DNA of 64,000 nt from Streptomyces sp. NBC_00376 (GTDB lineage Bacteria; Actinomycetota; Actinomycetes; Streptomycetales; Streptomycetaceae), in assembly GCF_036077095.1 (NCBI RefSeq), contig NZ_CP107960.1:3782001-3846000 (forward strand), given 5' to 3'. Of this stretch, positions 3,231 to 25,627 are shown piece by piece (position 1 is the first letter of the stretch; each line of letters starts with the position of its first letter). Below the pieces are notes generated by a model. It made no database searches and was not told where the DNA came from. It saw only the letters and a program-made list of their open reading frames with translations. Position numbers and translations under genes: made by a program.

Positions 3231-3245
3231 CTGACGAGCCGTCAG
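3231..3245. promoter_or_regulatory. Operator-like palindrome CTGACGAGCCGTCAG (site 1 of 6)
   Basis: The CTGAC/GTCAG arms are perfect, with a 5-base centre. It lies between the divergent secreted-protein gene and the NDP-forming acyl-CoA synthetase gene, 24 bases from a second copy. Similar sites occur at 3255, 9748, 20122, 25525 and 25613. The size and symmetry suit a TetR-family dimer. Confidence 0.7.
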
Positions 3246-3254
3246 TTCAGTAAC

Positions 3255-3269
3255 CTGACAGAGCGTCAG
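3255..3269. promoter_or_regulatory. Operator-like palindrome CTGACAGAGCGTCAG (site 2 of 6)
   Basis: This is the second perfect CTGAC-N5-GTCAG palindrome upstream of the acyl-CoA synthetase at 3328, 58 bases before its ATG. It sits 24 bp centre-to-centre from site 1, a little over two helical turns, which is compatible with paired binding. Confidence 0.7.
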
Positions 3270-3327
3270 CTTTTGGCTGGCCCGGCACGATCAACCCGAC
3301 GGACCCCGAGCAGGAGTGGGCGGAACG

Positions 3328-5559
3328 ATGCTTGGATCGACTCACGGCACCCTCACCACCGACTTCCGCGCCAGGGTGGTGGCCTGCGGCGAAGAGCCGC
3401 ATGCCGCCGTCCACAGCATGACGGTCGCCGCCGCAACGGAAGGCGTGCTGGACGTCAGCGGCCGGCCGTTGTACGCGGCCGTACCGGATCTGGACCGGTT
3501 CTTCCGGCCCGGCTCCGTGGCCGTCGTCGGCGCGTCCGACACCGAGGGACGGCCCAACACCGGCATCACCCGGCAGCTGATCCGCTGGGCCGAGCGGGTC
3601 GGGGCGCGGCTGTATCCCGTGCACCCCACCCGGGAGTCCGTGTTCGGGCTGGCCTGTTCTCCTTCCGTCGCGGAGCTGCCGGAGCAGGTCGATCTGGCCG
3701 TGCTGCTCGTCGGCGACCCGCTCCCGGTGATCGAGGAACTCGCCCAGGCCAAGGTGCGGTTCGCCGTCGCCTTCGCCTCCGGGTTCGCCGAGACCGGCGA
3801 GGAGGGCGCCGCCGCCCAGGCCCGGCTGGCCGCCGCGGTGGAACGGTCCGGGCTGCGGCTGCTCGGGCCGAACACCAACCTCAACGCCTTCGAGGAGTTC
3901 CGGGACGATCTGGACGGGCCGGCCATCGCGCTGATCACCCAGTCCGGTCACCAGGGCCGCCCCGTCTACACCCTTCAGGAGCTGGGCGTGCGGCTCTCGC
4001 ACTGGGCGCCCACGGGCAACGAGGCGGATCTGGAGACCGCCGACTTCATCTCGTACTTCTCTCAGCGCCCCGAGGTCGGGGCCATCGCCTGTTACGTGGA
4101 GGGGCTCAAGGACGGTCGCTCCTTCCTGCTCGCCGCGGACCGGGCCGCGCGGGCCGGGGTCCCGGTCGTGGCGGTCAAGGTGGGGCGTACCGAGACGGGG
4201 GCCAGGATGGCCGCGTCACACACCGGCAAGCTGACCGGCGCCGACCAGGTGGTGGACGCGGCGATGCGGCAGTTCGGCGTGATCCGGGTGGACGGGCTCG
4301 ACGAACTCCAGGACACCGCGGCGCTGCTCGCGCGGGCCCGGAAGCCGCAGGCCGAGGGGGTCGTCGTGTATTCGATCTCGGGCGGCACGGGCGCGCACTT
4401 CTCGGACCTGGCGACCGGCGCGGGGCTGAGCCTGCCCACCCTGTCCGAGGCGAAGCAGCGCGAGCTGCACGAGTGGATCCCCGGCTATCTGAACGTGGCG
4501 AACCCGGTCGACAACGGCGGGCATCCGGTCGGCGACTGGCGCGGCCGGAAGATCATCGACGCGATACTCGCCGACCCCGACGTCGGGGTGCTGATCTGTC
4601 CGATCACCGGCCCCTTCCCGCCGATGAGCGACAAGCTCGCGCAGGACCTGGTGGACGCGGCGGAGGCCACGGACAAACTGGTGTGCGTGGTGTGGGGCTC
4701 GCCCGTCGGCACGGAGGAGGCGTACCGCACGACGCTGCTCGGCTCGTCCCGCGTCGCCACCTTCCGCACCTTCGGCAACTGCATCACCGCCGTGAAGGCC
4801 TACCTGGACCACCACCGGTTCGCCGCTTCCTACCGCTCCCCCTTCGACGAGGCGCCGCGCACGCCCTCGCCCTCGTTCCGCAAGGCGCAGGCACTGATGC
4901 GTCCGGGCCAGCAGCTGAGCGAGCACGCGGCGAAGCAGCTGCTGCGGGCGTACGGGATCCGCGTGCCGCGCGAACAGTTGGTGACCAGCGCCGCGGCATC
5001 CGTCCGGGCCGCGGCACTGGTCGGCTACCCGGTCGTCATGAAGGCGTCGGGCGCCAGGCTCGCCCACAAGACCGAACTGGGCCTGGTCAAGGTCGGGCTC
5101 ACCTCCGCGAGCCAGGTGCGGGACGCCTATCGCGAACTGACCGACATCGCACGGTTCGAGGGCATCGAGCTGGACGGGATCCTGGTCTGCCAGATGGTCG
5201 AGCGGGGCGTCGAGATGATGGTCGGCGTCACCCAGGACGCGCTGTTCGGGCCGACGGTGACGGTCGGGCTCGGGGGCGTACTCGTCGAGGTGCTGCACGA
5301 CGCGGCGGTACGGGTGCCGCCGTTCGGCGAGGACCAGGCACGGTCGATGCTGGCCGAACTGCGCGGCCGGGCCCTGCTGGAGGGTGTGCGCGGTGGTCCG
5401 CCGGTGGATGTGGACGCGCTCGTCGAGGTCGTGCTGCGGGTGCAGCGGATGGCGCTGGAACTGGGCGACGACCTCGCCGAACTGGACATCAACCCGCTGA
5501 TGGTGCTCGGGCGGGGGCAGGGCGCGGTGGCGCTGGACGCGCTCGCCGTCTGCCGCTGA
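3328..5559 (+). CDS. NDP-forming acyl-CoA synthetase (acetate-CoA ligase family)
   Basis: The 743-residue single-chain enzyme ligates a carboxylic acid to CoA with ATP to ADP. Order of domains: a short N-terminal extension, a CoA-binding Rossmann domain (VAVVGASDTEGRPN near residue 66), succinyl-CoA-synthetase-like ligase domains with the phospho-histidine loop SHTGKLTG (His298), and a C-terminal ATP-grasp domain from about 515 (LVGYPVVMKASGARLAHKTE). The ATG at 3328 is preferred to the GTG at 3316 because the AGGAG at about 3310 is too close to the GTG. It is followed by a crotonase 94 bases downstream, probably in one transcript, and preceded by two CTGAC-N5-GTCAG sites. The acid substrate is unknown. 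Confidence 0.9.
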   Translation: MLGSTHGTLTTDFRARVVACGEEPHAAVHSMTVAAATEGVLDVSGRPLYAAVPDLDRFFRPGSVAVVGASDTEGRPNTGITRQLIRWAERVGARLYPVHPTRESVFGLACSPSVAELPEQVDLAVLLVGDPLPVIEELAQAKVRFAVAFASGFAETGEEGAAAQARLAAAVERSGLRLLGPNTNLNAFEEFRDDLDGPAIALITQSGHQGRPVYTLQELGVRLSHWAPTGNEADLETADFISYFSQRPEVGAIACYVEGLKDGRSFLLAADRAARAGVPVVAVKVGRTETGARMAASHTGKLTGADQVVDAAMRQFGVIRVDGLDELQDTAALLARARKPQAEGVVVYSISGGTGAHFSDLATGAGLSLPTLSEAKQRELHEWIPGYLNVANPVDNGGHPVGDWRGRKIIDAILADPDVGVLICPITGPFPPMSDKLAQDLVDAAEATDKLVCVVWGSPVGTEEAYRTTLLGSSRVATFRTFGNCITAVKAYLDHHRFAASYRSPFDEAPRTPSPSFRKAQALMRPGQQLSEHAAKQLLRAYGIRVPREQLVTSAAASVRAAALVGYPVVMKASGARLAHKTELGLVKVGLTSASQVRDAYRELTDIARFEGIELDGILVCQMVERGVEMMVGVTQDALFGPTVTVGLGGVLVEVLHDAAVRVPPFGEDQARSMLAELRGRALLEGVRGGPPVDVDALVEVVLRVQRMALELGDDLAELDINPLMVLGRGQGAVALDALAVCR

Positions 5560-5653
5560 CCGGGCCTTCCCCCGGCGGCCCCGCCGCCGCAGGCACCATC
5601 GCCCGAACCGACCGCCTTCCCGACCGCCACCACGACCACCCAGGAGCTGCCCC

Positions 5654-6493
5654 ATGCCGTCCTCCCCCGAAGACATCACCGAGTCCGCCGAATCCGCCGA
5701 CCCGCTCCATTCATTGGTACTCCACGCCACTGACAACGGCGTCTCGTGGATCACGCTCAACCGCCCCGAAGCGATGAACGCCGTCACCTGGGAGCAGCGG
5801 GAACGCGTCATCGGCCTGCTCGCCGAGGCCTCCGCCGATCCGGCGGTCCGGACCGTCGTCCTCACCGCCACCGGCCGCGGTTTCTGCGCGGGCGCCGACC
5901 TGCGCGGCGCCCCGGCGACCGGCGAGCGGGTGCCGGGCGATGTGGCCCGTACGATCCGGCTCGGTGCGCAGCGGCTGATCGCCGCGGTCCTGGACTGCGA
6001 GAAACCCGTCATCGCGGCCGTCAACGGCACGGCGGCCGGCATCGGCGCCCATCTCGCGTTCGCCTGCGATCTGGTGCTGGCCGCCGGATCGGCGAAGTTC
6101 ATCGAGGTGTTCGTACGGCGCGGCCTCGTACCCGACGGCGGCGGCGCGTATCTGCTGCCGCGGCTGATCGGCCCGCAGCGCGCCAAGGAGCTGATGTTCT
6201 TCGGCGACTCGCTCCCGGCAGCAGAGGCGGAACGCCTGGGGCTGGTCAACCGGGTCGTGCCGGACGAGGAGCTGGCGGCGACGGCGCGGGAGTGGGCGCA
6301 GCGGCTGGCCGAGGGACCGACCCGGTCGATCGCCCTCACCAAGCAGCTCGTCAACGCGTCGCTGGACGCCGACCGGTCGACGGCGTTCGCCGCCGAGGCC
6401 ATGGCCCAGGAGATCAACATGACGACGCAGGACGCCAACGAGGGCGTGGCGAGCTTCGTGGAGCGGAGAGCGCCGAAGTACCGGGGGATCTAG
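5654..6493 (+). CDS. Enoyl-CoA hydratase/isomerase (crotonase family, PaaG-like active site)
   Basis: The 279-residue crotonase has oxyanion-hole motifs GFCAGADL (about 75-82) and NGTAAGIGAHLA (about 118-129). The second catalytic loop reads GLVPDGGGAYLLPRL, with Asp where hydratases have the second Glu. That resembles PaaG-type 2,3-enoyl or epoxyphenylacetyl-CoA isomerases more than classical hydratases. An AGGAG box precedes the ATG at 5654. It lies downstream of the NDP-forming acyl-CoA synthetase, as expected if the pair activates and then processes an acyl chain. Confidence 0.92.
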   Translation: MPSSPEDITESAESADPLHSLVLHATDNGVSWITLNRPEAMNAVTWEQRERVIGLLAEASADPAVRTVVLTATGRGFCAGADLRGAPATGERVPGDVARTIRLGAQRLIAAVLDCEKPVIAAVNGTAAGIGAHLAFACDLVLAAGSAKFIEVFVRRGLVPDGGGAYLLPRLIGPQRAKELMFFGDSLPAAEAERLGLVNRVVPDEELAATAREWAQRLAEGPTRSIALTKQLVNASLDADRSTAFAAEAMAQEINMTTQDANEGVASFVERRAPKYRGI

Positions 6494-6642
6494 GGACTGT
6501 CGTCGAACTGCCGTCGTCGCCCGGAGTGCGGCCGCCCCGGCGCCGTTCCCCGCTTGTCCGGCGCCGGGCGGTCGGCAACGGTGACTTTCGGCAGTGTCGG
6601 GGCGCTCCGCGACTGCGTACGGTCGTGCGGGTGGAGAGAGTG

Positions 6643-8076
6643 ATGTCGATCGGCGCGGTCCGGCGGGCCCTCGTCGCCCCGGGGAGTCTGCTCGCCGTCG
6701 CGGCGGCGTTCTGTGTCGGGCTGAGCACGGTCAGTATGTGGTGGGCGCTGCCCGCAGCCGTGGCGGCGTTCTTCGCGGGGCGGGAGCCGGGGAGGACCGG
6801 GCCCACGGTCCTGGTGCTGGTGGCGGTGCTGGCCGGTGGTGTGGTGGCGGTGGCCCTGGTGCCCTCCTGGCTGCTGATGGCGGGGCGGTTCTCCGCGGTG
6901 GTGGCGGTGGCCGCGATGCTGCCGTGGTTCGCGGGGCGGTTCTGGCGTCAGTACCAGGAGCTCGTCCGGGCGGGCTGGGAGCGGGCGGGCCGGCTGGAGC
7001 GCGAACAGCGGCTCGTCGCCGAGCAGGCACGGTCCCGCGAACGGGCCAGGATCGCCCAGGACATGCACGACGTCCTCGGGCACGACCTCAGCCTCATCGC
7101 CCTGTCGGCCGGCGCCCTGAAGCTGGCCCCCGGTCTCGACGAGGCGCACCGGGCGGCGGCCGGGGAGATCCGGGCCCGCGCGGCCGCGTCGGTGGAGCGG
7201 CTCGGCGAGGTGATCGGCCTGCTGCGCGAGGAGGCGGGCGAGGAGTCCCCGCAGCAGCCCGGCGGCGGCATTCCCCGGCTGGTCGAGGAGGCCGCGGCCG
7301 CCGGGCTCGCGGTCGGCCTGCGGGTCGAGGGGGAGGCCGGCGCCATGTCCCCGGCGGCCGGGCGGGCCGCCCACCGGGTGGTCCAGGAGGCCCTGACCAA
7401 CGCGGCCAAGCACGCGCCGCGGGCACGGGTGGACGTGCGGGTGACGCACGCGGCCGGGGAGACGACGGTCCGGGTGGAGAACGGGCCCGCGCCCGCACCG
7501 GCCCGCACCGAGGACCTCCCGGGCACCGGGCGGGGACTGATCGGGCTCGACGAACGGGTACGGCTGACGGGCGGCGAGTTCGCGTACGGACCGTACGGGG
7601 GCGGCTTCGCGGTCACCGCACGGATACCGCACGCCACGCCCGCCGCACTCGCCGCACCCGCCCATCGAGCACCTGCGGCTCCCCGGGCCGCGCCCCCGGC
7701 CCTGCCCCCGGAACACCGGCACGCCCGCAGCCGCGCCCGCCGGGCGCTGGCCGTCGCGGTCGTGCTGCCCCTGGTGGCGTGGGCGGTGCTGAGTGCGGCG
7801 CTGATGGCCTGGGACATCCGCTCGGCCCGGCTGTCCGTGCTGGACCCGGGCGACTACGCCCGGCTGCGGGTGGGACAGGATCGGGAGAGCGTCGGGCGGC
7901 TGCTGCCCGACCGCGAGACCACGCAGCGGCCGGTGGCCGGGGAACCGAAGGGAGAGGGCATCACATGCCGGTACTACGCGATGACGGCGGACCGCTTCGA
8001 CGACCGGTCCGGGGACGCCTACCGGCTCTGCTTCCGGGACGGCCGGCTGATGTCCAAGGAGGCGCTGACGCCATGA
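6643..8076 (+). CDS. NarL-family sensor histidine kinase
   Basis: The 477-residue membrane kinase begins with about four hydrophobic segments in the first 100 residues and a short coiled region. A HisKA_3 dimerisation domain follows with phospho-acceptor His142 in QDMHDVLGHDL. Then comes an HATPase_c domain (N box EALTNAAKHAPRA near 250, G box GTGRGLIGLDERV near 297). After an Ala/Pro linker there is one more transmembrane segment (about 370-390) and an SmpA-like C-terminal domain that may face outside. The ATG at 6643 follows GGAGAG. The TGA overlaps the ATG of a repeat-encoded mini-ORF that leads into the response regulator gene. Confidence 0.92.
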   Translation: MSIGAVRRALVAPGSLLAVAAAFCVGLSTVSMWWALPAAVAAFFAGREPGRTGPTVLVLVAVLAGGVVAVALVPSWLLMAGRFSAVVAVAAMLPWFAGRFWRQYQELVRAGWERAGRLEREQRLVAEQARSRERARIAQDMHDVLGHDLSLIALSAGALKLAPGLDEAHRAAAGEIRARAAASVERLGEVIGLLREEAGEESPQQPGGGIPRLVEEAAAAGLAVGLRVEGEAGAMSPAAGRAAHRVVQEALTNAAKHAPRARVDVRVTHAAGETTVRVENGPAPAPARTEDLPGTGRGLIGLDERVRLTGGEFAYGPYGGGFAVTARIPHATPAALAAPAHRAPAAPRAAPPALPPEHRHARSRARRALAVAVVLPLVAWAVLSAALMAWDIRSARLSVLDPGDYARLRVGQDRESVGRLLPDRETTQRPVAGEPKGEGITCRYYAMTADRFDDRSGDAYRLCFRDGRLMSKEALTP

Positions 8077-8183
8077 TTCCGGGTGATGTGCGAGCAGGCG
8101 CTGACGCCATGATTCCGGGTGATGTGCAAGCAGGCGCTGACGCCATGATTCCGGCTGATGCCCCGGGAAGCACTGACGCCATG
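8061..8183 (+). repeat. 36-bp direct repeats (3 full units plus a partial one) at the kinase-regulator junction
   Basis: Units with ATG codons at 8073, 8109, 8145 and 8181 repeat every 36 bases (common core TGACGCCATGATTCCGG). Copies 1 and 2 are almost identical, copy 3 has diverged, and copy 4 keeps only its first bases. The period is a multiple of three, so one frame stays open through all of them, and each unit brings its own ATG. Confidence 0.9.
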
Positions 8184-8219
8184 AGCGCGCCACACACCAC
8201 AGGGGTGAGCGGGCGGTGA
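8073..8219 (+). CDS. Small repeat-encoded ORF coupling kinase and response regulator genes
   Basis: The 48-residue frame begins at an ATG that overlaps the kinase stop codon (ATGA). It ends with a TGA overlapping the GTG start of the response regulator (GTGA). It encodes three 12-residue units of the type MIPGDVRAGADA, then a unique tail MSAPHTTGVSGR. An AGGAGG sequence 10 bases upstream (8057-8062) would serve the first ATG. It is either a translated coupling peptide or an expanded copy of a short original leader beginning at the ATG at 8181. No family is recognised. Confidence 0.5.
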   Translation: MIPGDVRAGADAMIPGDVQAGADAMIPADAPGSTDAMSAPHTTGVSGR

Positions 8220-9619: not shown

Positions 9620-9747
9620 GGACGTGAACCTAGAAAGCGGCGGGGCCGCGGACCCGGGCCGAACGGCAGGGACCACCCCCGACGATCGTCAGGGGTGGGG
9701 CCTGCCGCACCGGCAGGTCCAAGCTGCCGGTCCTCGGGCCTTCCCAT

Positions 9748-9762
9748 CTGATGGAGTGTCAG
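9748..9762. promoter_or_regulatory. Operator-like palindrome CTGATGGAGTGTCAG (site 3 of 6)
   Basis: It is a CTGAC-N5-GTCAG variant with one arm mismatch. It is followed directly by TTCTAATC; TCTAAT at 9764-9769 would be a good -10 box placing the transcript start at or next to the flavin reductase start codon. A repressor bound here would cover the core promoter. Confidence 0.6.
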
Positions 9763-9778
9763 TTCTAATCGAAGGGTG

Positions 9779-10408
9779 ATGGGACACGCAGGCATGGCCG
9801 CCATCGCCGTCCGGTACCTCAGGTCCGTCGGCGCCGCCACCACCGCAGGGCCGGTACCGGTCGACGCACTGCCGCGCCCGCACCTGCGAGCCGTGGCCGA
9901 CGGGGAGCGGCCGCCCGTCGACCCGGGCGAATTCCGCCGCGTACTGGGGCACTTCGCCAGCGGCGTCACCATCGTCACCGCGCACGACCCGGACGACGAG
10001 GAGGGCCCGGCGGGCTTCGCCTGCCAGTCGTTCGCCTCGCTCTCCCTCGATCCGCCGCTGGTCACGTTCATGGTCGCCCGTACGTCGACGACCTGGCCGC
10101 GCATCGCGCGCGCCGGGGCCTTCTGCGTCAACATCCTCGGCGCGGGCCAGGGCGAACTGTGCCGGAGCTTCGCGGTGAGCGGAGCGGACAAGTTCGCGGG
10201 AGTGGCGTACGAGGCCGCCCCGGCGACCGGGTCGCCGCTGCTGGACTCCGTACCGGCCTGGATCGACTGCCGCATCCAGGCGGTCCACACCGGGGGCGAC
10301 CATCTGATCGTCGTCGGCCGGGTGGCGGCGATGGGAGCGACGGACGGGGCCGATCCGCTGCTGTTCCACCGGGGGACGTTCGGACGGTTCGGGCCGCTCG
10401 ACGGGTGA
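9779..10408 (+). CDS. Flavin reductase-domain protein (FMN-binding split barrel)
   Basis: The 210-residue protein carries the flavin-reductase-like split barrel: FRRVLGHFASGVTIVTA near residue 53, then GFACQSFASLSLDPPLVTF, FCVNILGAGQ, and a C-terminal GRFGPL. Relatives such as HsaB and HpaC supply reduced flavin to two-component aromatic or steroid monooxygenases. No monooxygenase component is adjacent. The ATG at 9779 lies about 9 bases after a probable -10 box, so the mRNA may be leaderless; an internal ATG at 9794 is the alternative. The promoter shares the CTGAC-N5-GTCAG element with the 17-27 kb catabolic genes. Confidence 0.88.
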   Translation: MGHAGMAAIAVRYLRSVGAATTAGPVPVDALPRPHLRAVADGERPPVDPGEFRRVLGHFASGVTIVTAHDPDDEEGPAGFACQSFASLSLDPPLVTFMVARTSTTWPRIARAGAFCVNILGAGQGELCRSFAVSGADKFAGVAYEAAPATGSPLLDSVPAWIDCRIQAVHTGGDHLIVVGRVAAMGATDGADPLLFHRGTFGRFGPLDG

Positions 10409-10479
10409 GCACGCGCCACAGGCGGATCGGCGGGTCGGCCGGTACGCCGGTGCCTCGGCACGCCGGTACGCGTACGCCT

Positions 10480-12213: not shown

Positions 12214-12234
12214 GGCGCCGGGCTCCCGGCGCCG

Positions 12235-16904: not shown

Positions 16905-17954
16905 TCAGAACACCAGCACGCCCCGGGCCACCCGGCCGTGGTGCGCGTCGTCCGCCGCCTTGGCGAAGTCCTCCACCGGGTAGGTGGTGGTGACGAGTTC
17001 GTCCAGGAGCAGCCGGCCCTCCCGGTACAGCTCGGCGTAGAGCGCAATGTCCCGCTGCGGGCGCGAGGAGCCGTACCGGCAGCCCAGGATCGACTTGTCC
17101 AGGAACATCGACGAGACGAGGAACGACGCCTCCGCCGTGGCCGCCGGGACGCCCAGCAGGATCGCCTGGCCGTGCCGGTCCAGCAGGTCGATCGCGGTAC
17201 GGATCAGCTCCGTACGGCCGACGCACTCGAAGGCGTGGTCGGCGCCGTTCGGCAGGATGTCCCGCACCTCGTCCGCCGAGGTCACGAAGTGTGTCGCGCC
17301 GAACTGCCGGGCCGCCGCCTCCTTCGCCGGGTTGGCGTCCACGGCGACGATCGTCAGCGCGCCCGCGATCCGGGCGCCCTGGATCACGTTGAGCCCGACG
17401 CCGCCGGTGCCGATCACCACGACCGTGTCGCCCCGGTCGACCTTCGCCCGGTTGAGCACGGCGCCCACCCCCGTCAGCACCCCGCAGCCGATCAGGGCCG
17501 CCGAGGTGAGCGGCAGATCGTCCGGGATCTTCACCGCCTGCACGGCCTTGACCAGGGTCCGTTCGGCGAAGGCCGAGTTGGAGGCGAACTGGTACAGCGG
17601 CTTCCCGCGCCGCGTGAACGGCTGCCCCGGCATCCCGATCGCCTTGCGGCACATCGTCGGGCGCCCCCGGTCGCACTGGGCGCACGCCCCGCAGTTGGCC
17701 AGCGTGGACAGCGACACGTGGTCGCCGGGCGCCACATGCCGGACGCCGGCGCCGACCGCCTCGACCACACCCGCGCCCTCGTGCCCGAGCACCACCGGTG
17801 ACGGGAACGGAATCGTCCCGTCGATCACCGAGAGGTCGCTGTGGCACAGCCCGGCCGCGGCCACCGCCACCAGCACCTCGCCGGGGCCCGGATCGCGTAT
17901 CTCCAGATCGTCGACGACCTCGGTCCGCTTGCCGTCGAAGACGACGCCTCTCAT
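16905..17954 (-). CDS. Zinc-dependent alcohol dehydrogenase (MDR, class III-like)
   Basis: The 349-residue medium-chain dehydrogenase has catalytic zinc ligands Cys37 (GLCHSD), His58-Glu59 (LGHEGAG) and a Cys near 157. All four structural-zinc cysteines are present (88, 91, 94, 102 in NCGACAQCDRGRPTMC). The NAD-binding motif GTGGVG lies near 181. It oxidises an alcohol to the aldehyde or ketone. It is the last gene of a three-gene minus-strand unit: its ATG overlaps the stop of the acyl-CoA dehydrogenase (ATGA), which follows an SDR gene. The unit starts at a CTGAC-N5-GTCAG promoter, pointing to side-chain or alcohol catabolism. Confidence 0.95.
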   Translation of the reverse strand: MRGVVFDGKRTEVVDDLEIRDPGPGEVLVAVAAAGLCHSDLSVIDGTIPFPSPVVLGHEGAGVVEAVGAGVRHVAPGDHVSLSTLANCGACAQCDRGRPTMCRKAIGMPGQPFTRRGKPLYQFASNSAFAERTLVKAVQAVKIPDDLPLTSAALIGCGVLTGVGAVLNRAKVDRGDTVVVIGTGGVGLNVIQGARIAGALTIVAVDANPAKEAAARQFGATHFVTSADEVRDILPNGADHAFECVGRTELIRTAIDLLDRHGQAILLGVPAATAEASFLVSSMFLDKSILGCRYGSSRPQRDIALYAELYREGRLLLDELVTTTYPVEDFAKAADDAHHGRVARGVLVF

Positions 17955-19147
17955 CTCGGCTCCTTCGGTAGGCCGAGCACCCGCTCGGCGATGATGTTCC
18001 GCTGGATCTCGTCCGAGCCGCCGTAGATGGTGTCGGACCGGGTGAACAGGAACAGGCGCTGTGCCTCGTCGAGTCCGTACGGTTGTTTCGCCGACCAGTC
18101 CTCCGGGCCGACGGCCGCCGCCGTGCCCCTGATCTGCACGGCCAGCTCGCCCAGGCGCTGGTGCCAGCCGCCCCAGAGCAGTTTCGCCACGCTGGGCGCG
18201 CCCGGGTCGCCGGTGGAGCCGAGGGTGCGCAGGGCGTTCCAGCGCATGGTCCGCAGCTGGGCCCACTGCCGTACGAGGCGTTCGCGCAGGACCGGGTCCA
18301 TGACGGCGCCGCTGTCGACGGCCGCCTCGACCACCCGGCCCAGTTCGGCGGCGAAGCCGATCTGCTGGACGAGCGTGGAGACGCCGCGCTCCAGGGCCAG
18401 CAGCCCCATGGCGACCGTCCAGCCGTTGCCCTCGCCGCCGACGCACTCCTCGGCGTGCGCCCCGTCGAAGAAGACCTCGTTGAACTCGCTGGTCCCGGAC
18501 ATCTGGCGGATCGGCCGCACCTCGATCCTGCCGGGCTGGTCCATCGGCACGAGCAGGAACGACAGGCCGTGGTGGCGGCGGGAGCCGGGCTCCGTGCGGG
18601 CCAGCACGAAGCACCAGTCGGCCTCCTTCGCGAGCGACGTCCAGATCTTCTGCCCGGTCACCCGGTGGCCGCCGCTGCCCGGGTCGCGCACCGCGGCCGT
18701 GCGCACCGCGGCCAGGTCCGATCCGGCGCCCGGCTCGCTGTAGCCCTGGCACCAGAGCGCGTCGCCGCGCGCCACGGCGGGCAGGAAGCGGCGCTGCTGC
18801 TCCTGGCTGCCGTAGGCGATCAGGGTCGGGGCGAGGAGGTTCTCGCCGATGTGGCCGACCCGGGCGGGGGCGTCGGCGCGGGCGTACTCCTCGGCCCAGA
18901 CGACCTGCTGGACGAGGCTGGCGCGGCGGTTGCCGTGGCCGGTGCCGTGGTCGTCCCAGCCGAGGCCGATCCAGCCGTCGCGGCCGAGTTCGCGCTCCCA
19001 GGCGCGGCGGACCGCGACGCCCTCGTGCTCGCTGCCGGGGCCGCCGGTGCCGGCGGCCGCCGCGTACTCGCCCACGAGGTGCTCTGCCAGCCAGCCGCGT
19101 GCCTCCGCGCGGAAGGCGGTGTCGTCGGGGCCGAAGCTGAAGTCCAC
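17951..19147 (-). CDS. Acyl-CoA dehydrogenase
   Basis: The 398-residue flavoenzyme has the standard three-domain fold: an N-terminal helical domain, a central beta domain with WCQGYSEPGAGSDLA (near 130) and GQKIWTSLAKEADWCFVLAR, and a C-terminal helical domain ending in GGSDEIQRNIIAERVLGLP. It introduces an alpha-beta double bond into an acyl-CoA. The ATG at 19147 lies 37 bases downstream of the SDR gene. The 3' end overlaps the alcohol dehydrogenase start, so the three form one operon. Confidence 0.95.
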   Translation of the reverse strand: MDFSFGPDDTAFRAEARGWLAEHLVGEYAAAAGTGGPGSEHEGVAVRRAWERELGRDGWIGLGWDDHGTGHGNRRASLVQQVVWAEEYARADAPARVGHIGENLLAPTLIAYGSQEQQRRFLPAVARGDALWCQGYSEPGAGSDLAAVRTAAVRDPGSGGHRVTGQKIWTSLAKEADWCFVLARTEPGSRRHHGLSFLLVPMDQPGRIEVRPIRQMSGTSEFNEVFFDGAHAEECVGGEGNGWTVAMGLLALERGVSTLVQQIGFAAELGRVVEAAVDSGAVMDPVLRERLVRQWAQLRTMRWNALRTLGSTGDPGAPSVAKLLWGGWHQRLGELAVQIRGTAAAVGPEDWSAKQPYGLDEAQRLFLFTRSDTIYGGSDEIQRNIIAERVLGLPKEPR

Positions 19148-19184
19148 GGGTGCCTCCTGCTGTTGCCGCTCGCCGTCCAGGGCC

Positions 19185-20099
19185 TCACGCGTTCGGGCGC
19201 GCCTTCGCCGCTGCCGCCGCGGCCATCTCCTCCAGCCGTGCCAGCATCGGCATCGGGTCGGTGCCCACCGTCCCCGGCAGGAAGTCCGCGATCCGCTCCG
19301 GGGTCCACGCCCCCTCGACGTACCCGGCCCGCAGTTCCCTGGGCTGGGCCCAGACCGCGATCTTCGGCCCCGCGACCGTGTACACCTGGCCGGTGATCTT
19401 CTCCTGGCGGGCCCGTTCGCTGAGCAGGTAGACGACGAGCGCCGCCACGTCCTCCGGCTCGCCGATCTCCTTGAGCTCCATGGGGACGTTGGCGGACATC
19501 CGGGTGCGGGCGACCGGGGCGACGGCGTTGGCCGTGACTCCGTACTTGTGCAGGCCGAGCGCCGCGCTCCGGACCAGCGAGATGATCCCGCCCTTCGCGG
19601 CGCTGTAGTTGGCCTGGGCGACGCTGCCCTGGTGGTTGCCGCTGGTGAAGCCGATCAGGGTGCCGCCGCCCTCCTGCTTGCGCATCACCGCCGACGCGGC
19701 CCGGAAGACGGTGAAGGTGCCCTTGAGGTGGGTGGCGACCACCGGGTCCCACTCCTCCTCGGACATGTTGAACAGCATCCGTTCCCGCAGGATGCCGGCC
19801 ACGCAGACGACCCCGTCGATCCGGCCGAAGCGGGCGAGCGCCGTGTCCACGATCCGCTGGCCGCCCGCCATCGTGGCGATGTCGTCGGCGACCGCCACCG
19901 CCTCGCCGCCCGCCGCCTCGATCTCCTTGACGACCGACTCGGCCACCTCGCTGCTCGGTTCGCCGCCCTCGATGGAGACGCCGTAGTCGTTGACGACGAC
20001 CCGCGCCCCCTCGGCCGCGGCCGCGAGCGCGACCGCCCGCCCGATGCCGCGCCCGGCACCCGTGACGGCCACCACCTTGCCTGCCAAGAAGTTCCCCAT
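19185..20099 (-). CDS. Short-chain dehydrogenase/reductase (17beta-HSD4/MFE-2-like)
   Basis: The 304-residue SDR has the cofactor motif TGAGRGIG (13-20), NDYG after the second strand (NAD preference), the active-site Ser near 150 in IGFTSGNHQ, and Tyr164-Lys168 in YSAAK. It lacks the final compact SDR end and has about 50 extra C-terminal residues, as in the dehydrogenase part of peroxisomal-type 3-hydroxyacyl-CoA dehydrogenases. The likely reaction is oxidation of a 3-hydroxyacyl-CoA or steroid-like alcohol. It is the first gene of the three-gene unit. The divergent gene at 20183 shares the operator at 20122-20136. Confidence 0.93.
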   Translation of the reverse strand: MGNFLAGKVVAVTGAGRGIGRAVALAAAAEGARVVVNDYGVSIEGGEPSSEVAESVVKEIEAAGGEAVAVADDIATMAGGQRIVDTALARFGRIDGVVCVAGILRERMLFNMSEEEWDPVVATHLKGTFTVFRAASAVMRKQEGGGTLIGFTSGNHQGSVAQANYSAAKGGIISLVRSAALGLHKYGVTANAVAPVARTRMSANVPMELKEIGEPEDVAALVVYLLSERARQEKITGQVYTVAGPKIAVWAQPRELRAGYVEGAWTPERIADFLPGTVGTDPMPMLARLEEMAAAAAAKARPNA

Positions 20100-20121
20100 G
20101 CCCGGCCCCTTCCCGCGGTTT

Positions 20122-20136
20122 CTGACGGACCGTTAG
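20122..20136. promoter_or_regulatory. Operator-like palindrome CTGACGGACCGTTAG (site 4 of 6)
   Basis: It is a CTGAC-N5-GTCAG type site with one arm mismatch, centred between the divergent SDR and cyclase genes. On the plus strand TAGATT (20134-20139) is a plausible -10 box for the cyclase gene. On the minus strand TAAAAT lies just beside the palindrome as a -10 for the SDR operon. One bound dimer could therefore block both promoters. Confidence 0.7.
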
Positions 20137-20182
20137 ATTTTATGGGCCATCAGGTCCACGAGCACAAGCCCCAGGAGGCGCC

Positions 20183-21109
20183 ATGTCACTGCCGGCCGAG
20201 TTCCACGACATCGCGAAGCGGGTCAACAACTGGGGCCGCTGGGGGGCCGACGACGAGATCGGGACGCTCAACCTGATCACCGACGCCGTCGTGCGCGAGG
20301 CGGCGGCCACCGTCCGCACCGGTCTGCGGATCCCGCTCGCGCTCCCCCTCCAGCAGGACGGGGTGCAGAACGGACTGATCCCCGGGCGGGTCAATCCGCT
20401 GCACACCATGATCCAGATCAACCAGGAGCTCTTCGGCCCCGGCACCGTCGCCACCAGCGACGACACGGCGGTCCTGAGCCTGCAGACGGCCACCCACTGG
20501 GACGCCCTGACCCATGCCTCGCACTCGGGGAAGATCTACAACGGCCGCCCGGCCTCGACGATCACCGCACACGGCGGCGCGCAGTTCAGCGGGATAGACA
20601 AGGCGCCGCACATCGTCTCGCGCGGGGTGCTGCTCGACGTGGCGCGGGCCCACGGCGTGGACCGGCTGGAGGGCGGTCACGCCGTCACGCCCGAGGACCT
20701 GGACGCGGCCGAGGATCTGGCCGGGGTACGGGTCCGGTCCGGCGACATCGTGCTCGTACGGACCGGACAGGTGCAGGTGTATCTGGCGGGCGACAAGCAC
20801 GCGTACGGCTATCCGTCGCCCGGACTGTCGGTCCGGACGCCCGAGTGGTTCCGCGCGCGCGATGTGGCGGCGGTCGCCAACGACACCCTGACCTTCGAGA
20901 TCTTCCCGCCGGAGATCGAGGACCTGTGGCTGGGGGTGCACGCGCTGGACCTGGTCGAGATGGGCATGCTGCAGGGCCAGAACTGGAATCTGGAGGCGCT
21001 GTCCACAGCCTGTGCGCAGGAGAAGCGGTACGCCTTCCTGCTCTCCGCCATGCCGGAGCCGTTCACCGGCGCGACCGGCACCCCGGTGGCACCGGTCGCC
21101 GTCCTGTGA
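20183..21109 (+). CDS. Cyclase-family metal-dependent hydrolase (kynurenine formamidase-like)
   Basis: The 308-residue protein of the cyclase/KynB fold has the metal-binding stretch THWDALTHASH (about 102-112), matching the HxGTHxDxPxH theme with HWDALTH. Later conserved motifs include DIVLVRTG and ANDTLTFE. Family members hydrolyse amides, lactones or cyclic ketone intermediates, so a ring-opening or lactonase step is possible here. A GGAGG box precedes the ATG at 20183. It is transcribed divergently from the SDR, acyl-CoA dehydrogenase and alcohol dehydrogenase unit under a shared operator. Confidence 0.9.
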   Translation: MSLPAEFHDIAKRVNNWGRWGADDEIGTLNLITDAVVREAAATVRTGLRIPLALPLQQDGVQNGLIPGRVNPLHTMIQINQELFGPGTVATSDDTAVLSLQTATHWDALTHASHSGKIYNGRPASTITAHGGAQFSGIDKAPHIVSRGVLLDVARAHGVDRLEGGHAVTPEDLDAAEDLAGVRVRSGDIVLVRTGQVQVYLAGDKHAYGYPSPGLSVRTPEWFRARDVAAVANDTLTFEIFPPEIEDLWLGVHALDLVEMGMLQGQNWNLEALSTACAQEKRYAFLLSAMPEPFTGATGTPVAPVAVL

Positions 21110-21140
21110 CGGGAGAGTCCTCAGCGAACTGCTTTAACCT

Positions 21141-21659
21141 TTATGCAAAGTACTTGACGGCTTGTGACACCTGGTGCGCATCACGGTCCGCATCCCCCGC
21201 GCAGGGCGCGACGCCCTGCGCGCCGGAGTGCAGCGGCAGCTGGATCAGCGGCGCACCCCGGTCGACCTCGCACCAGATGCGCTTGCCCGCGCCCTCCGGC
21301 TGCCAGCCCCAGCGGTCGGCGAGGCCGTCGACCAGCTCCAGGCCCCGGCCGTTGGTGTCCTCGCCCGCCGCGTGGCGCTGCTGCGGCGGGCGACAGCTGG
21401 TGTCGGCCACCTCGACCCGGACGGTCCCGGCCGCACCGGCCGAGCCGGTCAGGCCGAACAGCATGCGGAGCACCGCCGGGCACCCGGTGTGCACCACCGC
21501 GTTGGTGACCAGCTCCGAGATCAGCAGGATGAGCGTCTCGGCCAGTGGCTCGTCGTCCCTTATCCCGGACCCGACCAGTCTCGACCGGGCCCATCTACGG
21601 GCCCGCCCGACCTCTGCGGGATCCGGCCCGACTTCCAGCTGAACCTGAAGCACCTGCAC
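21141..21659 (-). CDS. SpoIIAB/RsbW-like ATP-binding regulatory kinase
   Basis: The 172-residue single-domain HATPase_c_2 protein has N box ISELVTNAVVHTG and G box NGRGLELVDGLADRWGW. Such small GHKL proteins in Streptomyces act as anti-sigma factors or switch kinases of STAS proteins. The GTG at 21659 starts right at the first strand (QVLQVQLEVGPDPAEVG). The final 30 or so residues (after CEVDRGAPL) are longer than usual for this family and look unstructured, suggesting that an original stop was lost. The STAS protein at 27850 is a conceivable but unlinked partner. Confidence 0.85.
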   Translation of the reverse strand: MQVLQVQLEVGPDPAEVGRARRWARSRLVGSGIRDDEPLAETLILLISELVTNAVVHTGCPAVLRMLFGLTGSAGAAGTVRVEVADTSCRPPQQRHAAGEDTNGRGLELVDGLADRWGWQPEGAGKRIWCEVDRGAPLIQLPLHSGAQGVAPCAGDADRDAHQVSQAVKYFA

Positions 21660-22176
21660 CGCTCACACCATCCGAACCGGCGGACACATCGCCTCGCGCC
21701 TCCTCGGGGTCACGGAACGTGATTCCCCTGCGAGACAGCATGGTTGACGTACAGTCACCGCAACAAGCGCTTCGGGCATATTCCAGCGCGAAGGAGTACG
21801 TGTGATGCATACTGTGCGACGCACGTTGCGGGGAGTCGAACAGAGGCGCGTCGAGGCCGTACGAACCGCCCCCGGGGCATGCCCGGCGCTTCTGCCTGGA
21901 ACGCGAGCAGGGCACCGTTCCGGAGCCGGAGTCACCGCAGGGGCAACACCCGGACCGCCCGGTTCCAGTTCCTGTCGCATCCAACGGAGCGTACCCGAGC
22001 CCGGCGCCGACTCCACCCCGTGACGGATGACGTGAAGGCCGCAGGCCGGAGCCGGTGCCCGTCAACTGCACTGCGTAACTCCGCAGCGTGAGGCTTGCGG
22101 CTCTGCCTGTCATCTGCGTGCACCGCGCATTCACCCGCCACCGGGCACCCGAGGCCTGCACGGAACCCGCCCGGTT
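21660..22176. other. 517-bp stretch without a confident gene
   Basis: The region between the ATP-binding protein start and the 3' end of an acyl-CoA dehydrogenase gene is less GC-rich in its left half. It contains a possible promoter-like TTGACG (near 21743) and an AAGGAG box followed by GTG and ATG codons at 21802 and 21805. Two overlapping plus-strand frames are partly open but neither looks strongly coding. It may hold a small gene or the leader region of the minus-strand ATP-binding protein. Confidence 0.5.
21805..22023 (+). CDS. Possible small basic protein of unknown function
   Basis: The ATG at 21805 lies 8 bases after a good AAGGAG box (21791-21796) and opens a 72-codon frame beginning MHTVRRTLRGVEQRRVEAV. 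The N-terminal 25 residues are Arg-rich and helical in pattern; the remainder is Pro/Gly/Ser-rich and low in information. The competing frame, one base off, reads through Cys-rich and Pro-rich sequence without a start. The ribosome binding site is the main argument for it. It could equally be spurious. Confidence 0.25.
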   Translation: MHTVRRTLRGVEQRRVEAVRTAPGACPALLPGTRAGHRSGAGVTAGATPGPPGSSSCRIQRSVPEPGADSTP

Positions 22177-23130
22177 TCAGCACAGGTCCCCCGCGAGCAC
22201 CTCCTCGGCCGCCGCCGCCGTCAGCCACTGCCCGGACCGCAGCCAGGCCCGCTTGAGGTGCAGGTGGACGTCCGCCTCCCAGGTGAAGCCCATGCCGCCG
22301 TGCACCTGGAGGCAGTCGCGCGCGTTGCGGACCGCCGCGTCGTCGGCGAGCAGTTTGGCGCCCGCGATCTCCACCGGGTCCGCGGTCACGGCCGCCGCGT
22401 ACACGGCGCAGCGGGCCAGCTCGGCGCGGACCAGCATTCCGGCGCACAGGTGTTTGACCGCCTGGAAGGAGCCGATCGGCGATCCGAACTGCTCGCGCTC
22501 ACCGGCGTGTTGGACGGCCATCTCGGTCGTCCGGGCGGCGCTGCCGAGCTGTTCGGCGGCGGCGAGCAGGGCGCCCTCGTCGCGCAGCCGCCCGCCCCCG
22601 GGCAGCGGCTCGCCCGCCTCCACCGGGTCCGCGACCCGCCACAGGGGCGTGAACGGGTCCATCGAACGTACGGGGGTGGCGGCGTCCCGTACCGGGGTGA
22701 CGTCCGCCGGGGCGGCACCGGATTCCCGCGGTCCGTTCCCGGGACCGAGCACCAGCAGCGCGTCCGCCTCGCCCAGGTGTGCCACCGGCTGCCCCGGGTC
22801 GAGCACGGCGACCACCGTCTCGCCCTGCGCCGCGCCCTTGACCGGGCCGGCCGCGAGGTGGGTGGCGATCAGCGGTCCGGGCAGCAGCGAGCGCCCCGCC
22901 TCCTCGAAGAGCAGGACCGCTTCGGGCAGCCCGAGACCGACGCCGCCCTCCGCCTCCGGGAGCCGCAGCGCGAAGAACCCGGCCTCGCCGAGCTCCCGCC
23001 ACAGCGCCCGGTCGACGCCCGTGCCGTCGTCGAGCGCCACCCGCATCCGGTCCCTGCCGAAACGCCCGGCGAGGAGTTCCCGCACCCCCGCCCGCAGGGC
23101 CCGCTGGTCGTCCGAGAGCTGGAAGTCCAT
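22177..23130 (-). CDS. Acyl-CoA dehydrogenase, short subunit (FadE/ChsE-like)
   Basis: The 317-residue protein is about 70 residues shorter than a standard acyl-CoA dehydrogenase. It keeps MDFQLSDDQRALRAGVRELL, a central region reduced to PLWRVADPVEAG-type segments, and a C-terminal helical domain with REQFGSPIGSFQAVKHLCAG and QVHGGMGFTWEADVHLHLKR. The usual beta-domain FAD motif is degenerate. It follows 7 bases after a full-length acyl-CoA dehydrogenase. Adjacent unequal pairs form alpha2beta2 enzymes in actinobacterial steroid side-chain degradation (ChsE1-ChsE2, ChsE4-ChsE5), and a heteromer is inferred here. Confidence 0.92.
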   Translation of the reverse strand: MDFQLSDDQRALRAGVRELLAGRFGRDRMRVALDDGTGVDRALWRELGEAGFFALRLPEAEGGVGLGLPEAVLLFEEAGRSLLPGPLIATHLAAGPVKGAAQGETVVAVLDPGQPVAHLGEADALLVLGPGNGPRESGAAPADVTPVRDAATPVRSMDPFTPLWRVADPVEAGEPLPGGGRLRDEGALLAAAEQLGSAARTTEMAVQHAGEREQFGSPIGSFQAVKHLCAGMLVRAELARCAVYAAAVTADPVEIAGAKLLADDAAVRNARDCLQVHGGMGFTWEADVHLHLKRAWLRSGQWLTAAAAEEVLAGDLC

Positions 23131-23137
23131 GAGTGCG

Positions 23138-24298
23138 TCAGCGCCCCTTCGGCAGGCCGAGTATGCGTTCGGCGACGATGTTCCGCTGGATCTGCGAGGT
23201 GCCCGCGGCGATGGTGTACGAGAGCGAGGAGAGCCGGTCCAGGACCCACTCCCGGTCCAGGTCCGCGCTGTCGGCGCCGAGCACCTCGGCGGCCGCCTCG
23301 TACAGCTCCTGGCGGGCGTGCGAGTAGCGCAGCTTGAAGACCGAACCGCCGGTTCCGGGCACGCCGCCGGCCCCGGCCCGCTGCGCCTCGCTGACGTTCC
23401 ACTGGGTGAGCCGCCACAGCGCCCGGAATTCGGCGTTCAGCCTGCCCAGCCTGCGGCGCAGCACCGGATCGTCCCAGCGTCCGCCGCGCCGGGCCTCGGC
23501 CGCCAGCGCGTCCAGGGTGCGGCGGCAGGCGACTACCTCGCCGACAAAGGCCGTACCGCGCTCGAAGGAGAGGGTGACCATGGTGACCCGCCAGCCGTCG
23601 TTCTCCGCGCCGACCCGGTGGGAGACGGGCACCCGCACCTCGTCGAGGAACATCTCGGCGAACTCGGTGGACCCGGCGAGGGTGCGCAGCGGGCGGACGG
23701 TGACCCCCGGCGCGTCCATCTCCATCGCGAGCCAGGTGATCCCGCGGTGCTTGGGCGCCGCCGGGTCCGTACGCACCAGGAGCTCGCACCAGTCGGCGAC
23801 CTCGGCGTGCGAGGTCCAGATCTTGCTGCCGCTCACCACGTAGTGGTCGCCGTCGCGCACCGCCCTGGTCCGCAGCGCGGCGAGGTCCGAGCCGGCGTCG
23901 GGCTCGCTGAACCCCTGGCACCAGATCTCGTCGCCGCTGAGCACCGGGGGCAGCCAGCGCGCCCGCTGCTCCGAGGTGCCCTCGGCCGCGATCGTCGGGC
24001 CGGCGTGCAGCAGCCCGACGAAGTTCGCGCCGACGTACGGGGCTCCGGCCTTCTCCGTCTCCTCCAGGAAGATCAGGTGCTGGGTCGGGGTCGCGCCCCG
24101 GCCGCCCGCGTCGACGGGCCAGTGCAGACCGGCGTAGCCGGCGTCGTACAGCATCCGCTGCCAGGCCGTGTCGTACGCGCGGCGGCCCGGCCAGTCGTCG
24201 GGGCGGGGCTTCGGAGGCAGTCCGGGCAGCACGACGGCCAGCCACTCGCGCAGCCGCGCCCGGAACTCCTGTTCCTCCTGGGTGTACGCGAGGTCCAT
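23138..24298 (-). CDS. Acyl-CoA dehydrogenase, large subunit of the probable pair
   Basis: The 386-residue flavoenzyme has an N-terminal LAYTQEEQEFRARLREWLA, central WCQGFSEPDAGSDLAALRTR and GSKIWTSHAEVADWCELLVR, and C-terminal GTSQIQRNIVAERILGLPKG. Its ATG at 24298 lies 7 bases after the amidohydrolase stop. The short paralogue follows 7 bases downstream, so all three are one operon starting at 25499. It supplies the FAD site for dehydrogenation of a probably bulky acyl-CoA. Confidence 0.95.
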   Translation of the reverse strand: MDLAYTQEEQEFRARLREWLAVVLPGLPPKPRPDDWPGRRAYDTAWQRMLYDAGYAGLHWPVDAGGRGATPTQHLIFLEETEKAGAPYVGANFVGLLHAGPTIAAEGTSEQRARWLPPVLSGDEIWCQGFSEPDAGSDLAALRTRAVRDGDHYVVSGSKIWTSHAEVADWCELLVRTDPAAPKHRGITWLAMEMDAPGVTVRPLRTLAGSTEFAEMFLDEVRVPVSHRVGAENDGWRVTMVTLSFERGTAFVGEVVACRRTLDALAAEARRGGRWDDPVLRRRLGRLNAEFRALWRLTQWNVSEAQRAGAGGVPGTGGSVFKLRYSHARQELYEAAAEVLGADSADLDREWVLDRLSSLSYTIAAGTSQIQRNIVAERILGLPKGR

Positions 24299-24305
24299 CG
24301 CGGGC

Positions 24306-25499
24306 CTACTTGTCGAGGTCCAGGCCGAGCATGCGGATCGCGTTTCCGCGCATCAGTTTGTAGACGGTCTCGTCGTCCAGTCCCTTGACGTGGTCGAGGG
24401 CGACCTCCTTGGTGTGCGGGAAGGTCGAGTCGACGTGCGGGTAGTCGGTCTCGAAGGTGGCGTTGTCCCGCCCGACGACGTCGAGCGAGGCGACGCCGTG
24501 CTTGTCGCGGAAGAAGCAGCAGAAGATCTGCCGGTAGTAGTACGTGGACGGCGGCTCGGGGATCAGATCGCGCACCCCGCCCCAGGCCCGGTGCTCCTCC
24601 CAGACGTCGTCGGCGCGCTCCAGGGCGTACGGGATCCAGCCCATCTGGCCCTCGCTGTAGGCGAGCTTGAGCTGCGGGAACCGCACCAGGACCCCGCTGA
24701 ACAGGAAGTCCATCATCGAGGCCATGGCGTTGTTGAAGGAGAGGCTGGCCTGTACGGCGGGCGGGGCGTCCGGCGAGGCGGCGGGCATCTGCGAGCTGGA
24801 CCCGATGTGCATGTTGACGACCGTGCCGGTCTCCTGGCAGGCCGCGAAGAACGGGTCCCAGTACCCGGTGTGGATCGACGGCAGGCCGAGGTGGGTGGGG
24901 ATCTCGGAGAAGGTCACCGCGCGCACCCCGCGGGCCGCGTTGCGGTGGATCTCGGCGACCGCGAGGCCGATGTCCCAGAGCGGGATGATGCAGAGCGGGA
25001 TGAGCCGGCCGCCGCTGTCGCCGCACCACTCCTCGACCATCCAGTCGTTGTAGGCGCGGACACACGCGACCGCCACTTCTTTGTCCTGGGCCTCGGCGAA
25101 GGTCTGGCCGCAGAAGCGCGGGAAGGTCGGGAAGCAGAGGCTGGCCTCGACGTGGTTGAGGTCCATGTCCTTGAGCCGCTCGGCCGGGTCCCAGCAGCCG
25201 GGCCGCATCTCCGCCCGGGTGATGCCCTCCAGCGTCATGTCGTCGCGGTCGAAGCCGACGGCGGCGATGTTGCGCTTGTACGGGAACTTCAGGTCCTCGT
25301 AGATCCACCAGTCGGTGGGCGGGCCGTCCGGATCCATGGTGATGACGTACTTGCCGCCCGTGTAGGCCAGCTCGCCGATGCCCGCGGTGAGCGGCTGCGG
25401 GCCGCGCTCGCGGTACTTGGCGGGCAGCCAGGTCGAGAAGAGGTGCGGCGGCTCGATCACATGGTCGTCGACGCTGACGATCCGAGGCAGTTCCGTCAT
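24306..25499 (-). CDS. Amidohydrolase-family metal-dependent hydrolase (ACMSD-like)
   Basis: The 397-residue TIM-barrel amidohydrolase has an N-terminal metal motif VSVDDHVIEPP (Asp/His near 12-13). Further ligand-type residues are in NMHIGSSS (near 220) and the terminal Asp in ETDYPHVDSTFP (near 350). The ACMSD-like branch performs decarboxylation or hydrolysis of ring-cleavage products. It is first in an operon with the acyl-CoA dehydrogenase pair. The minus-strand promoter carries ACATAAAT next to a CTGAT/GTCAG palindrome. It may act on a ring-derived intermediate; this is inference. Confidence 0.92.
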   Translation of the reverse strand: MTELPRIVSVDDHVIEPPHLFSTWLPAKYRERGPQPLTAGIGELAYTGGKYVITMDPDGPPTDWWIYEDLKFPYKRNIAAVGFDRDDMTLEGITRAEMRPGCWDPAERLKDMDLNHVEASLCFPTFPRFCGQTFAEAQDKEVAVACVRAYNDWMVEEWCGDSGGRLIPLCIIPLWDIGLAVAEIHRNAARGVRAVTFSEIPTHLGLPSIHTGYWDPFFAACQETGTVVNMHIGSSSQMPAASPDAPPAVQASLSFNNAMASMMDFLFSGVLVRFPQLKLAYSEGQMGWIPYALERADDVWEEHRAWGGVRDLIPEPPSTYYYRQIFCCFFRDKHGVASLDVVGRDNATFETDYPHVDSTFPHTKEVALDHVKGLDDETVYKLMRGNAIRMLGLDLDK

Positions 25500-25524
25500 G
25501 GTGTCCCCTCCGGCGCGCGATTTT

Positions 25525-25539
25525 CTGATGACCCGTCAG
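25525..25539. promoter_or_regulatory. Operator-like palindrome CTGATGACCCGTCAG (site 5 of 6)
   Basis: It is a CTGAC-N5-GTCAG type site with one arm mismatch, 26 bases upstream of the amidohydrolase ATG. The minus-strand sequence CATAAAT abuts it as a probable -10 box, so occupancy would block transcription of the amidohydrolase and acyl-CoA dehydrogenase operon. Confidence 0.7.
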
Positions 25540-25612
25540 ATTTATGTCGCCATCAGGCTAGCCCCGCACCCCTGGACCGACAAGGCACATCGCTCTACGC
25601 TCTCCGCACCAT

Positions 25613-25627
25613 CTGACTGTCCGTCAG
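25613..25627. promoter_or_regulatory. Operator-like palindrome CTGACTGTCCGTCAG (site 6 of 6)
   Basis: The CTGAC/GTCAG arms are perfect. TTTAAG at 25629-25634 follows as a probable -10 box, and the GTG start of the CoA ligase lies 9 bases further on, so the transcript may be leaderless. The site is 88 bp centre-to-centre from site 5 in the divergent promoter region. Confidence 0.7.

Follow-up and report, generated by a model that had tools for sequence, protein, structure and literature searches.

In mycobacteria, CYP125- and igr-type genes are targets of the repressor KstR, and KstR2 controls the ring C/D genes. The igr operon of Mycobacterium tuberculosis encodes acyl-CoA dehydrogenases, ChsH1/ChsH2 and Ltp2. 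According to PMC1995591, KstR is a TetR repressor that has TnnAACnnGTTnnA as operator and a regulon devoted to lipid and sterol catabolism. Here, we describe a 15-bp palindrome, CTGAC-N5-GTCAG, found in a stretch of 64,000 nucleotides of Streptomyces sp. NBC_00376 (hereafter the window; C1:3782001-3846000, C1 being contig NZ_CP107960.1, of a 10.04 Mb genome). Its extended form, ATCTGACGGNCCGTCAGAT, probably serves as operator for TetR38, a single conserved member of the TetR family, which would repress genes of coenzyme A (CoA)-ester enzymes and of flavin/F420 oxidoreductases, be released by a sterol- or isoprenoid-like intermediate, and share several sterol side-chain genes with a second, KstR-like control.

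This predicted system resembles the KstR regulon in several respects: a TetR-family protein, a short palindromic motif that often occurs between divergent genes, a large catabolic regulon, possibly a site at the promoter of the regulator itself, and CYP125- and igr-type targets. However, TetR38 belongs to PF19352 and not to PF17925, the half-site and spacing are different (CTGAC-N5-GTCAG), the TetR38 set includes amidohydrolases and luciferase-like (LLM) oxidoreductases, and TetR38 would coexist with a KstR-like repressor at some of the same promoters. The KstR2 regulon is also similar by its description, i.e. a second TetR layer over sterol catabolism that acts on CoA-ester steps (KstR2 is named in PMC4810484). 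As for the igr operon, an operon located at C1:4297814-4302587 shows the order acyl-CoA dehydrogenase, ChsH2-like, acyl-CoA dehydrogenase, MaoC and Ltp, but it has a CTGAC operator, no KstR-type palindrome was found in the 10 kb examined, and CYP125 is encoded elsewhere in the genome. A literature search, limited for subscription papers and partly run without the motif letters, gave no description of CTGAC-N5-GTCAG or of PF19352. The regulon is likely to be new, although of a known kind. It is larger than the initial sequence-only reading of the window held, and its regulator can likely be named.

Predicted operator sites, conservation and genome-wide extent

The sequence-only reading had reported six copies of the palindrome, and all their coordinates and mismatch counts are correct (three perfect copies and three with one mismatch, Table 1). 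The three perfect copies compare with a mean of 0.05 and a maximum of 2 in 200 order-3 Markov simulations of the window, and the seven copies with at most one mismatch compare with a mean of 2.03 and a maximum of 6. At the level of two mismatches, the window shows no enrichment (31 seen versus 39.3 expected). All six copies are located before genes, as had been proposed, but a seventh copy with one mismatch (27033) is intragenic; this copy looks like a chance match and was dropped from the regulon. In a 96 kb region (the window and the 32 kb to its left), there are 13 copies with no or one mismatch, and 12 of them fall between genes, for a coding proportion of about 86% measured in this region only (binomial p 6e-10). 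Moreover, a pair spaced by 24 bp, like that at 3231 and 3255, recurs in S. hiroshimensis (L301) and S. olivoreticuli (L309) before a gene with a matching N-terminus. By eye, -10-like boxes adjoin the 25525 and 20122 sites; a sigma-70 consensus scan of the 25525/25613 promoter found nothing.

Alignment of promoter sites (58 site-gene pairs, 54 of them distinct, two window sites being counted twice) gave the extended operator, with A/T-rich flanks on both sides. These sites were selected at 170 bp or less from a start codon and several are found at 16-60 bp; such closeness fits a promoter-blocking repressor that would be released by a pathway intermediate. The amidohydrolase gene gives an indication of conservation. 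It is present in 43 of the 61 Streptomyces genomes and missing from 18 (E 1e-100), and the 30 amidohydrolase promoters analysed, including that of NBC_00376, all carry at least one site, 29 of them carrying two. The sites persist although spacer bases and distances vary, as is typical of sites bound by a protein. The two amidohydrolase paralogues of the genome (window 24306-25499 and C1:3755724-3756911) are inherited together: there are two matches in each of these 43 genomes and none in the other 18.

The sites extend far beyond the window. The scan of the whole genome that the sequence-only reading had suggested as a check retrieved 98 copies of CTGAYN5RTCAG, all of which were inspected in context, for 8 of the reversed control. 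According to a simple codon-usage gene caller with uncurated starts, 37 of the 98 are located at most 170 bp upstream of a called start and outside called genes and tRNAs, 28 are intragenic and 33 are elsewhere. The 45 perfect copies include 26 promoter-placed and 8 intragenic ones. Some of the non-intragenic copies will also be chance matches. Three CTGATTAAGAGTCAG copies were excluded from the regulon, as they are positioned within tRNA-Lys genes (these three count among the 33). The proposal of a single regulon holds as regards the shared operator, but the regulon is genome-wide rather than a local set of six sites.

The cluster itself extends 25 kb leftward, where further sites are found (-108, -8525, -8631 with one mismatch, -18938 and -25061 in window coordinates). 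They precede a DoxX-like gene (identified by eye) and a flavin monooxygenase; a thiolase; an acyl-CoA dehydrogenase together with an F420H2-dependent reductase; a ligase together with an Ltp/ChsH2/crotonase operon; and the second amidohydrolase. Elsewhere in the genome, two operator-led proteins have no Pfam family above the cut-off (C1:5044354-5045193, L059; C1:288443-289564, L003); they are candidate new enzymes of the pathway.

Such palindromes might also act as transcription terminators or structural repeats instead of operators, since the 25525 copy is followed by TTT and has a terminator-like score, and many copies lie at convergent gene ends in one family of genomes, f13. However, in the cluster of NBC_00376, in the displayed Streptomyces loci and in genome G036, the sites are 5' of genes and often in divergent promoters; furthermore, these sites have AT-rich flanks, which are lacking in the copies from G012, a member of f13. 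This explanation appears highly improbable.

Family f13 (G012, G035, G053, G069 and G085; loci L130 and L132-L173) carries 232-473 CTGACN5GTCAG copies per genome of 4.3-5.5 Mb. In the two genomes that were mapped, G012 and G085, copies are often located between convergent genes, the palindrome supplies at least one stop codon at 9/25 sites in G012 and 5/17 in G085, and 8/25 and 11/17 copies, respectively, are intragenic; the gene calls on f13 vary in detail between runs of the caller. This family makes a different, repeat-like use of the same palindrome. A giant TetR38 regulon in f13 was considered and dropped, because many copies are between convergent genes, at stop codons or within genes. 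For the same reason, f13 was left out of the co-occurrence test presented below.

TetR38 as candidate regulator

The sequence-only reading saw no obvious cognate regulator gene adjacent to the sites. This is at least incomplete, since a strong candidate, TetR38, is encoded in the same cluster, 10.6 kb to the left of the window (C1:3770762-3771409, 215 aa), between sites -18938 and -8631. The protein has a TetR_N helix-turn-helix (PF00440, 26.8 bits for a cut-off of 24) and a C-terminal ligand domain (PF19352, TetR_C_38, 247.3 bits, residues 77-211 of a 211-aa form); the copy from family f14 matches PF19352 at 154.3 bits. TetR38 is present as a single copy in all 61 Streptomyces genomes, and the best 80 named relatives among the matches retained are all from Streptomyces. 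Beyond this genus its distribution is patchy: five other families exceed 120 bits, and a sixth has one copy with an in-frame stop. A search of solved structures gave only weak TetR matches (EthR being the best, at 29 bits). No NCBIfam equivalog was above its cut-off, and the KstR model NF033703 was not among the NCBIfam matches of TetR38 (E up to 0.001).

The surroundings of tetR38 are rich in sites. The 80 Streptomyces tetR38 loci (1.39 Mb), which are related and not independent events, contain 210 sites, 209 of them intergenic, with at least one site in 67 loci, for only 2 copies of the control GACTYN5RAGTC, which differs slightly from the reversed pattern of the whole-genome scan. A copy with at most one mismatch is found in the -180..+30 region of tetR38 in 53 of 58 loci (0.28 expected), i.e. 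43/44 in Streptomyces, where it overlaps the start codon, and 10/14 in others. In all seven f12 and f14 loci analysed, among which f14 genome G130 is not counted, tetR38 comes after a short-chain dehydrogenase gene, and a motif copy with zero or one mismatch precedes each of the two genes. Just before Streptomyces tetR38 (700-775 in L017), a leaderless promoter is possible by eye (TAAGCT-GACGGC-ATG), within an upstream block of about 55 bp that is conserved in 44 loci.

The density of the motif across genomes was compared with the presence of TetR38 (at least 120 bits) in 197 genomes, which are not independent. The median is 4.19 sites/Mb with TetR38 (n = 30) versus 1.31 without (n = 162), i.e. 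about threefold, Streptomyces included (p 5e-13). Outside Streptomyces, the 14 TetR38 genomes still show a density about twofold higher (p 3e-6). Among genomes that have a KstR-family match, the values are 4.29 with TetR38 (n = 28) and 1.29 without (n = 35; p 4e-9). Motif density thus tracks TetR38 more closely than KstR. In G036 (f14), operators precede the kinds of genes that they precede in NBC_00376: an amidohydrolase, a luciferase-like oxidoreductase, short-chain dehydrogenase/crotonase, acyl-CoA dehydrogenases and a fused acyl-CoA dehydrogenase. A site with one mismatch precedes a CYP125 relative (384 bits to a natural CYP125).

In the most probable model, a TetR38 dimer, bound just upstream of start codons, would block the transcription of CoA-ester and flavin/F420 oxidoreductase genes. 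It would be released by an intermediate, such as a CoA-thioester, that arises from a sterol- or isoprenoid-like substrate. A KstR-like repressor bound to TAGAACNNGTTCTA-type sites would exert a second control at several sterol side-chain genes; the cluster of the window shows TetR38 sites only.

Another regulator, encoded elsewhere, might read the sites, TetR38 being a mere neighbour. Each Streptomyces genome has many TetR genes, TetR38 and the KstR family are the only ones that were profiled, and the self-site of Streptomyces tetR38 is imperfect. However, tetR38 itself follows an operator-led short-chain dehydrogenase gene in f12 and f14, regulon promoters flank it in Streptomyces, and motif density follows its presence. 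We therefore consider a different reader unlikely and retain TetR38.

KstR-type sites and sterol-type targets

The genome also encodes a KstR-like TetR (C1:6120764-6121375, with PF17925), which scores 198 bits and misses the curated cut-off of NF033703 (280 bits), a cut-off that none of the 61 Streptomyces genomes passes. In four Streptomyces genomes, G206, G232, G239 and G245, even the best KstR-family match is weak; they carry 9, 28, 64 and 13 CTGAC sites, respectively. A KstR-type palindrome is located at its own promoter (C1:6121538). Separate KstR palindromes (TGAAACTTGTTCTA, TAGAACGCGTTCTA) are found at this promoter and at several sterol genes, partly beside CTGAC sites. In NBC_00376, three places with the KstR-type element are the ligase/crotonase promoter at 8.22 Mb and the genes of the MaoC hydratase and the fused acyl-CoA dehydrogenase; in G036, it adjoins the operator at the CYP125 and fused acyl-CoA dehydrogenase genes. 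In regions that were chosen for holding sites, a KstR-type match lies at most 120 bp from 5 of the 36 intergenic CTGAC sites (1.1 expected): three in NBC_00376, one in G036 and one in G111. None of the nine window-region sites has such a match beside it. We read this layout as that of a second sterol/isoprenoid-CoA repressor, which would be layered on KstR.

The KstR-like protein belongs to a known family of sterol repressors and might itself read the CTGAC sites through a changed Streptomyces operator. Its gene is found in 28 of the 30 TetR38 genomes outside f13 and, in NBC_00376, shares a region with CYP125 and the fused acyl-CoA dehydrogenase. However, its classical palindrome stands as a separate element, the 35 genomes with a KstR-family match and without TetR38 have background density, no match to the TnnAACnnGTTnnA-type operator is found in the 96 kb around the window, and G163 has 23 sites and no KstR-family match at E 1e-30. 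The KstR-like protein was dropped as reader of the CTGAC sites, a role that we judge very unlikely.

The nature of the substrate is suggested by other operator targets of the genome. One is CYP125 (517 bits to solved CYP125, the next family being CYP124 at 310). Another is the igr-like operon. For the three proteins of this operon that were searched, the best solved relatives are the Tcur3483 acyl-CoA dehydrogenase (427 bits), ChsH2 (147 bits) and, at 557 bits, the Ltp of 6ok1 (6ok1_A); the 133-aa MaoC protein was matched to Pfam only. The fused acyl-CoA dehydrogenase is a further target. The Ltp encoded in the window cluster is less closely related (333 bits). The sterol side-chain set (CYP125, acyl-CoA dehydrogenase pair, ChsH1/H2, Ltp2) was recognised by sequence similarity only. 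Since CYP125 and the igr-like operon are among the targets, our best guess is that the regulon serves a sterol side-chain-type pathway; the steroid-like pathway suggested by the sequence-only reading is therefore plausible. More speculatively, TetR38 might act throughout the genus as master repressor of a pathway so far undescribed in Streptomyces. This pathway would dismantle sterol- or hopanoid/terpenoid-like compounds from the side chain, joining igr-type CoA chemistry, F420-dependent (LLM) oxidoreductases and an amidohydrolase pair, and TetR38 would work alongside KstR at some promoters that the two share.

Several observations weigh against the control of these genes by TetR38 or against a sterol-type substrate. 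TetR38 and a KstR-like TetR are mostly found together in the same genomes. The excluded family f13 holds TetR38 without a KstR-family match; apart from it, only G163 (23 sites) and G022 (5 sites, i.e. background) of the 197 genomes do so. G150, whose genome is 68% complete, has 15 sites and no TetR38 match, G011 has TetR38 and only 7 sites, and weaker matches in G181 (99 bits) and G162 (88 bits) were scored as absences. In G111 (f18), the first ten sites examined are mostly outside promoters; those near its tetR38 are mostly promoter sites. CTGACGGCATGACAG, the Streptomyces match at tetR38, is part of a conserved block and runs into both the start codon and a -10-like box; it therefore may not be an operator. 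Finally, genes related in sequence to the controlled ones are also used for non-steroid substrates, and a 2016 survey of 57 Streptomyces genomes (PMC4810484) found 55 to lack a steroid pathway.

Window genes and significance of the predicted regulon

The enzyme identities given by the sequence-only reading match the Pfam assignments (Table 1). The operator ties the listed promoters together, except that no separate site precedes the PaaG-like crotonase; this gene could be reached by the regulation only as the gene that follows the NDP-forming ligase. At window 47800-55538, another TetR gene stands at the end of a leftward unit that also comprises genes for acyl-CoA dehydrogenase, biotin carboxylase and carboxyltransferase. 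No CTGAC site, perfect or with one mismatch, occurs in this region, which looks like a separate catabolic unit.

Table 1. Palindrome copies and neighbouring genes (window coordinates)
Feature	Position	Strand	Sequence or assignment	Remarks
Operator, perfect	3231..3245	.	CTGACGAGCCGTCAG	82 bp 5' of NDP-forming acyl-CoA synthetase start
Operator, perfect	3255..3269	.	CTGACAGAGCGTCAG	24 bp from 3231 site, 58 bp 5' of synthetase start
NDP-forming acyl-CoA synthetase (ATP-grasp_5, Succ_CoA_lig)	3328..5559	+	Pfam	
Enoyl-CoA hydratase/isomerase, PaaG-like	5654..6493	+	Pfam	without own operator, codirectional with synthetase
Operator, one mismatch	9748..9762	.	CTGATGGAGTGTCAG	31 bp 5' of flavin reductase
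Flavin reductase	9794..10408	+	Pfam	
Zinc-type alcohol dehydrogenase	16905..17954	-	Pfam	
Acyl-CoA dehydrogenase	17951..19147	-	Pfam	
Short-chain dehydrogenase	19185..20099	-	Pfam	first gene of leftward unit
Operator, one mismatch	20122..20136	.	CTGACGGACCGTTAG	divergent promoter: short-chain dehydrogenase (-) / cyclase-family hydrolase (+)
Cyclase-family hydrolase	20183..21109	+	Pfam	
Acyl-CoA dehydrogenase	22177..23130	-	Pfam	
Acyl-CoA dehydrogenase	23138..24298	-	Pfam	
Amidohydrolase (PF04909)	24306..25499	-	Pfam	
Operator, one mismatch	25525..25539	.	CTGATGACCCGTCAG	25 bp 5' of amidohydrolase; kept across genus
Operator, perfect	25613..25627	.	CTGACTGTCCGTCAG	16 bp 5' of AMP-forming ligase; kept across genus
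AMP-forming acyl-CoA ligase	25644..27182	+	Pfam	
One-mismatch copy	27033..27047	.		within AMP-forming ligase gene; not counted in regulon

With this analysis, an operator, a regulon with 37 promoter-placed sites in this genome and a testable class of substrates are predicted for a conserved single-copy repressor of Streptomyces. From our reading of the Pfam results, about two dozen of these 37 sites precede CoA-ester or redox enzymes. If the role proposed for TetR38 is true, sterol-type side-chain genes would be under a second, separate repressor beside KstR in Streptomyces, a genus mostly found without the full steroid pathway, and TetR38 would be a new control point for sterol bioconversion. 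Moreover, the regulon would help to assign functions to many acyl-CoA dehydrogenases, luciferase-like oxidoreductases and amidohydrolases that lack annotation.

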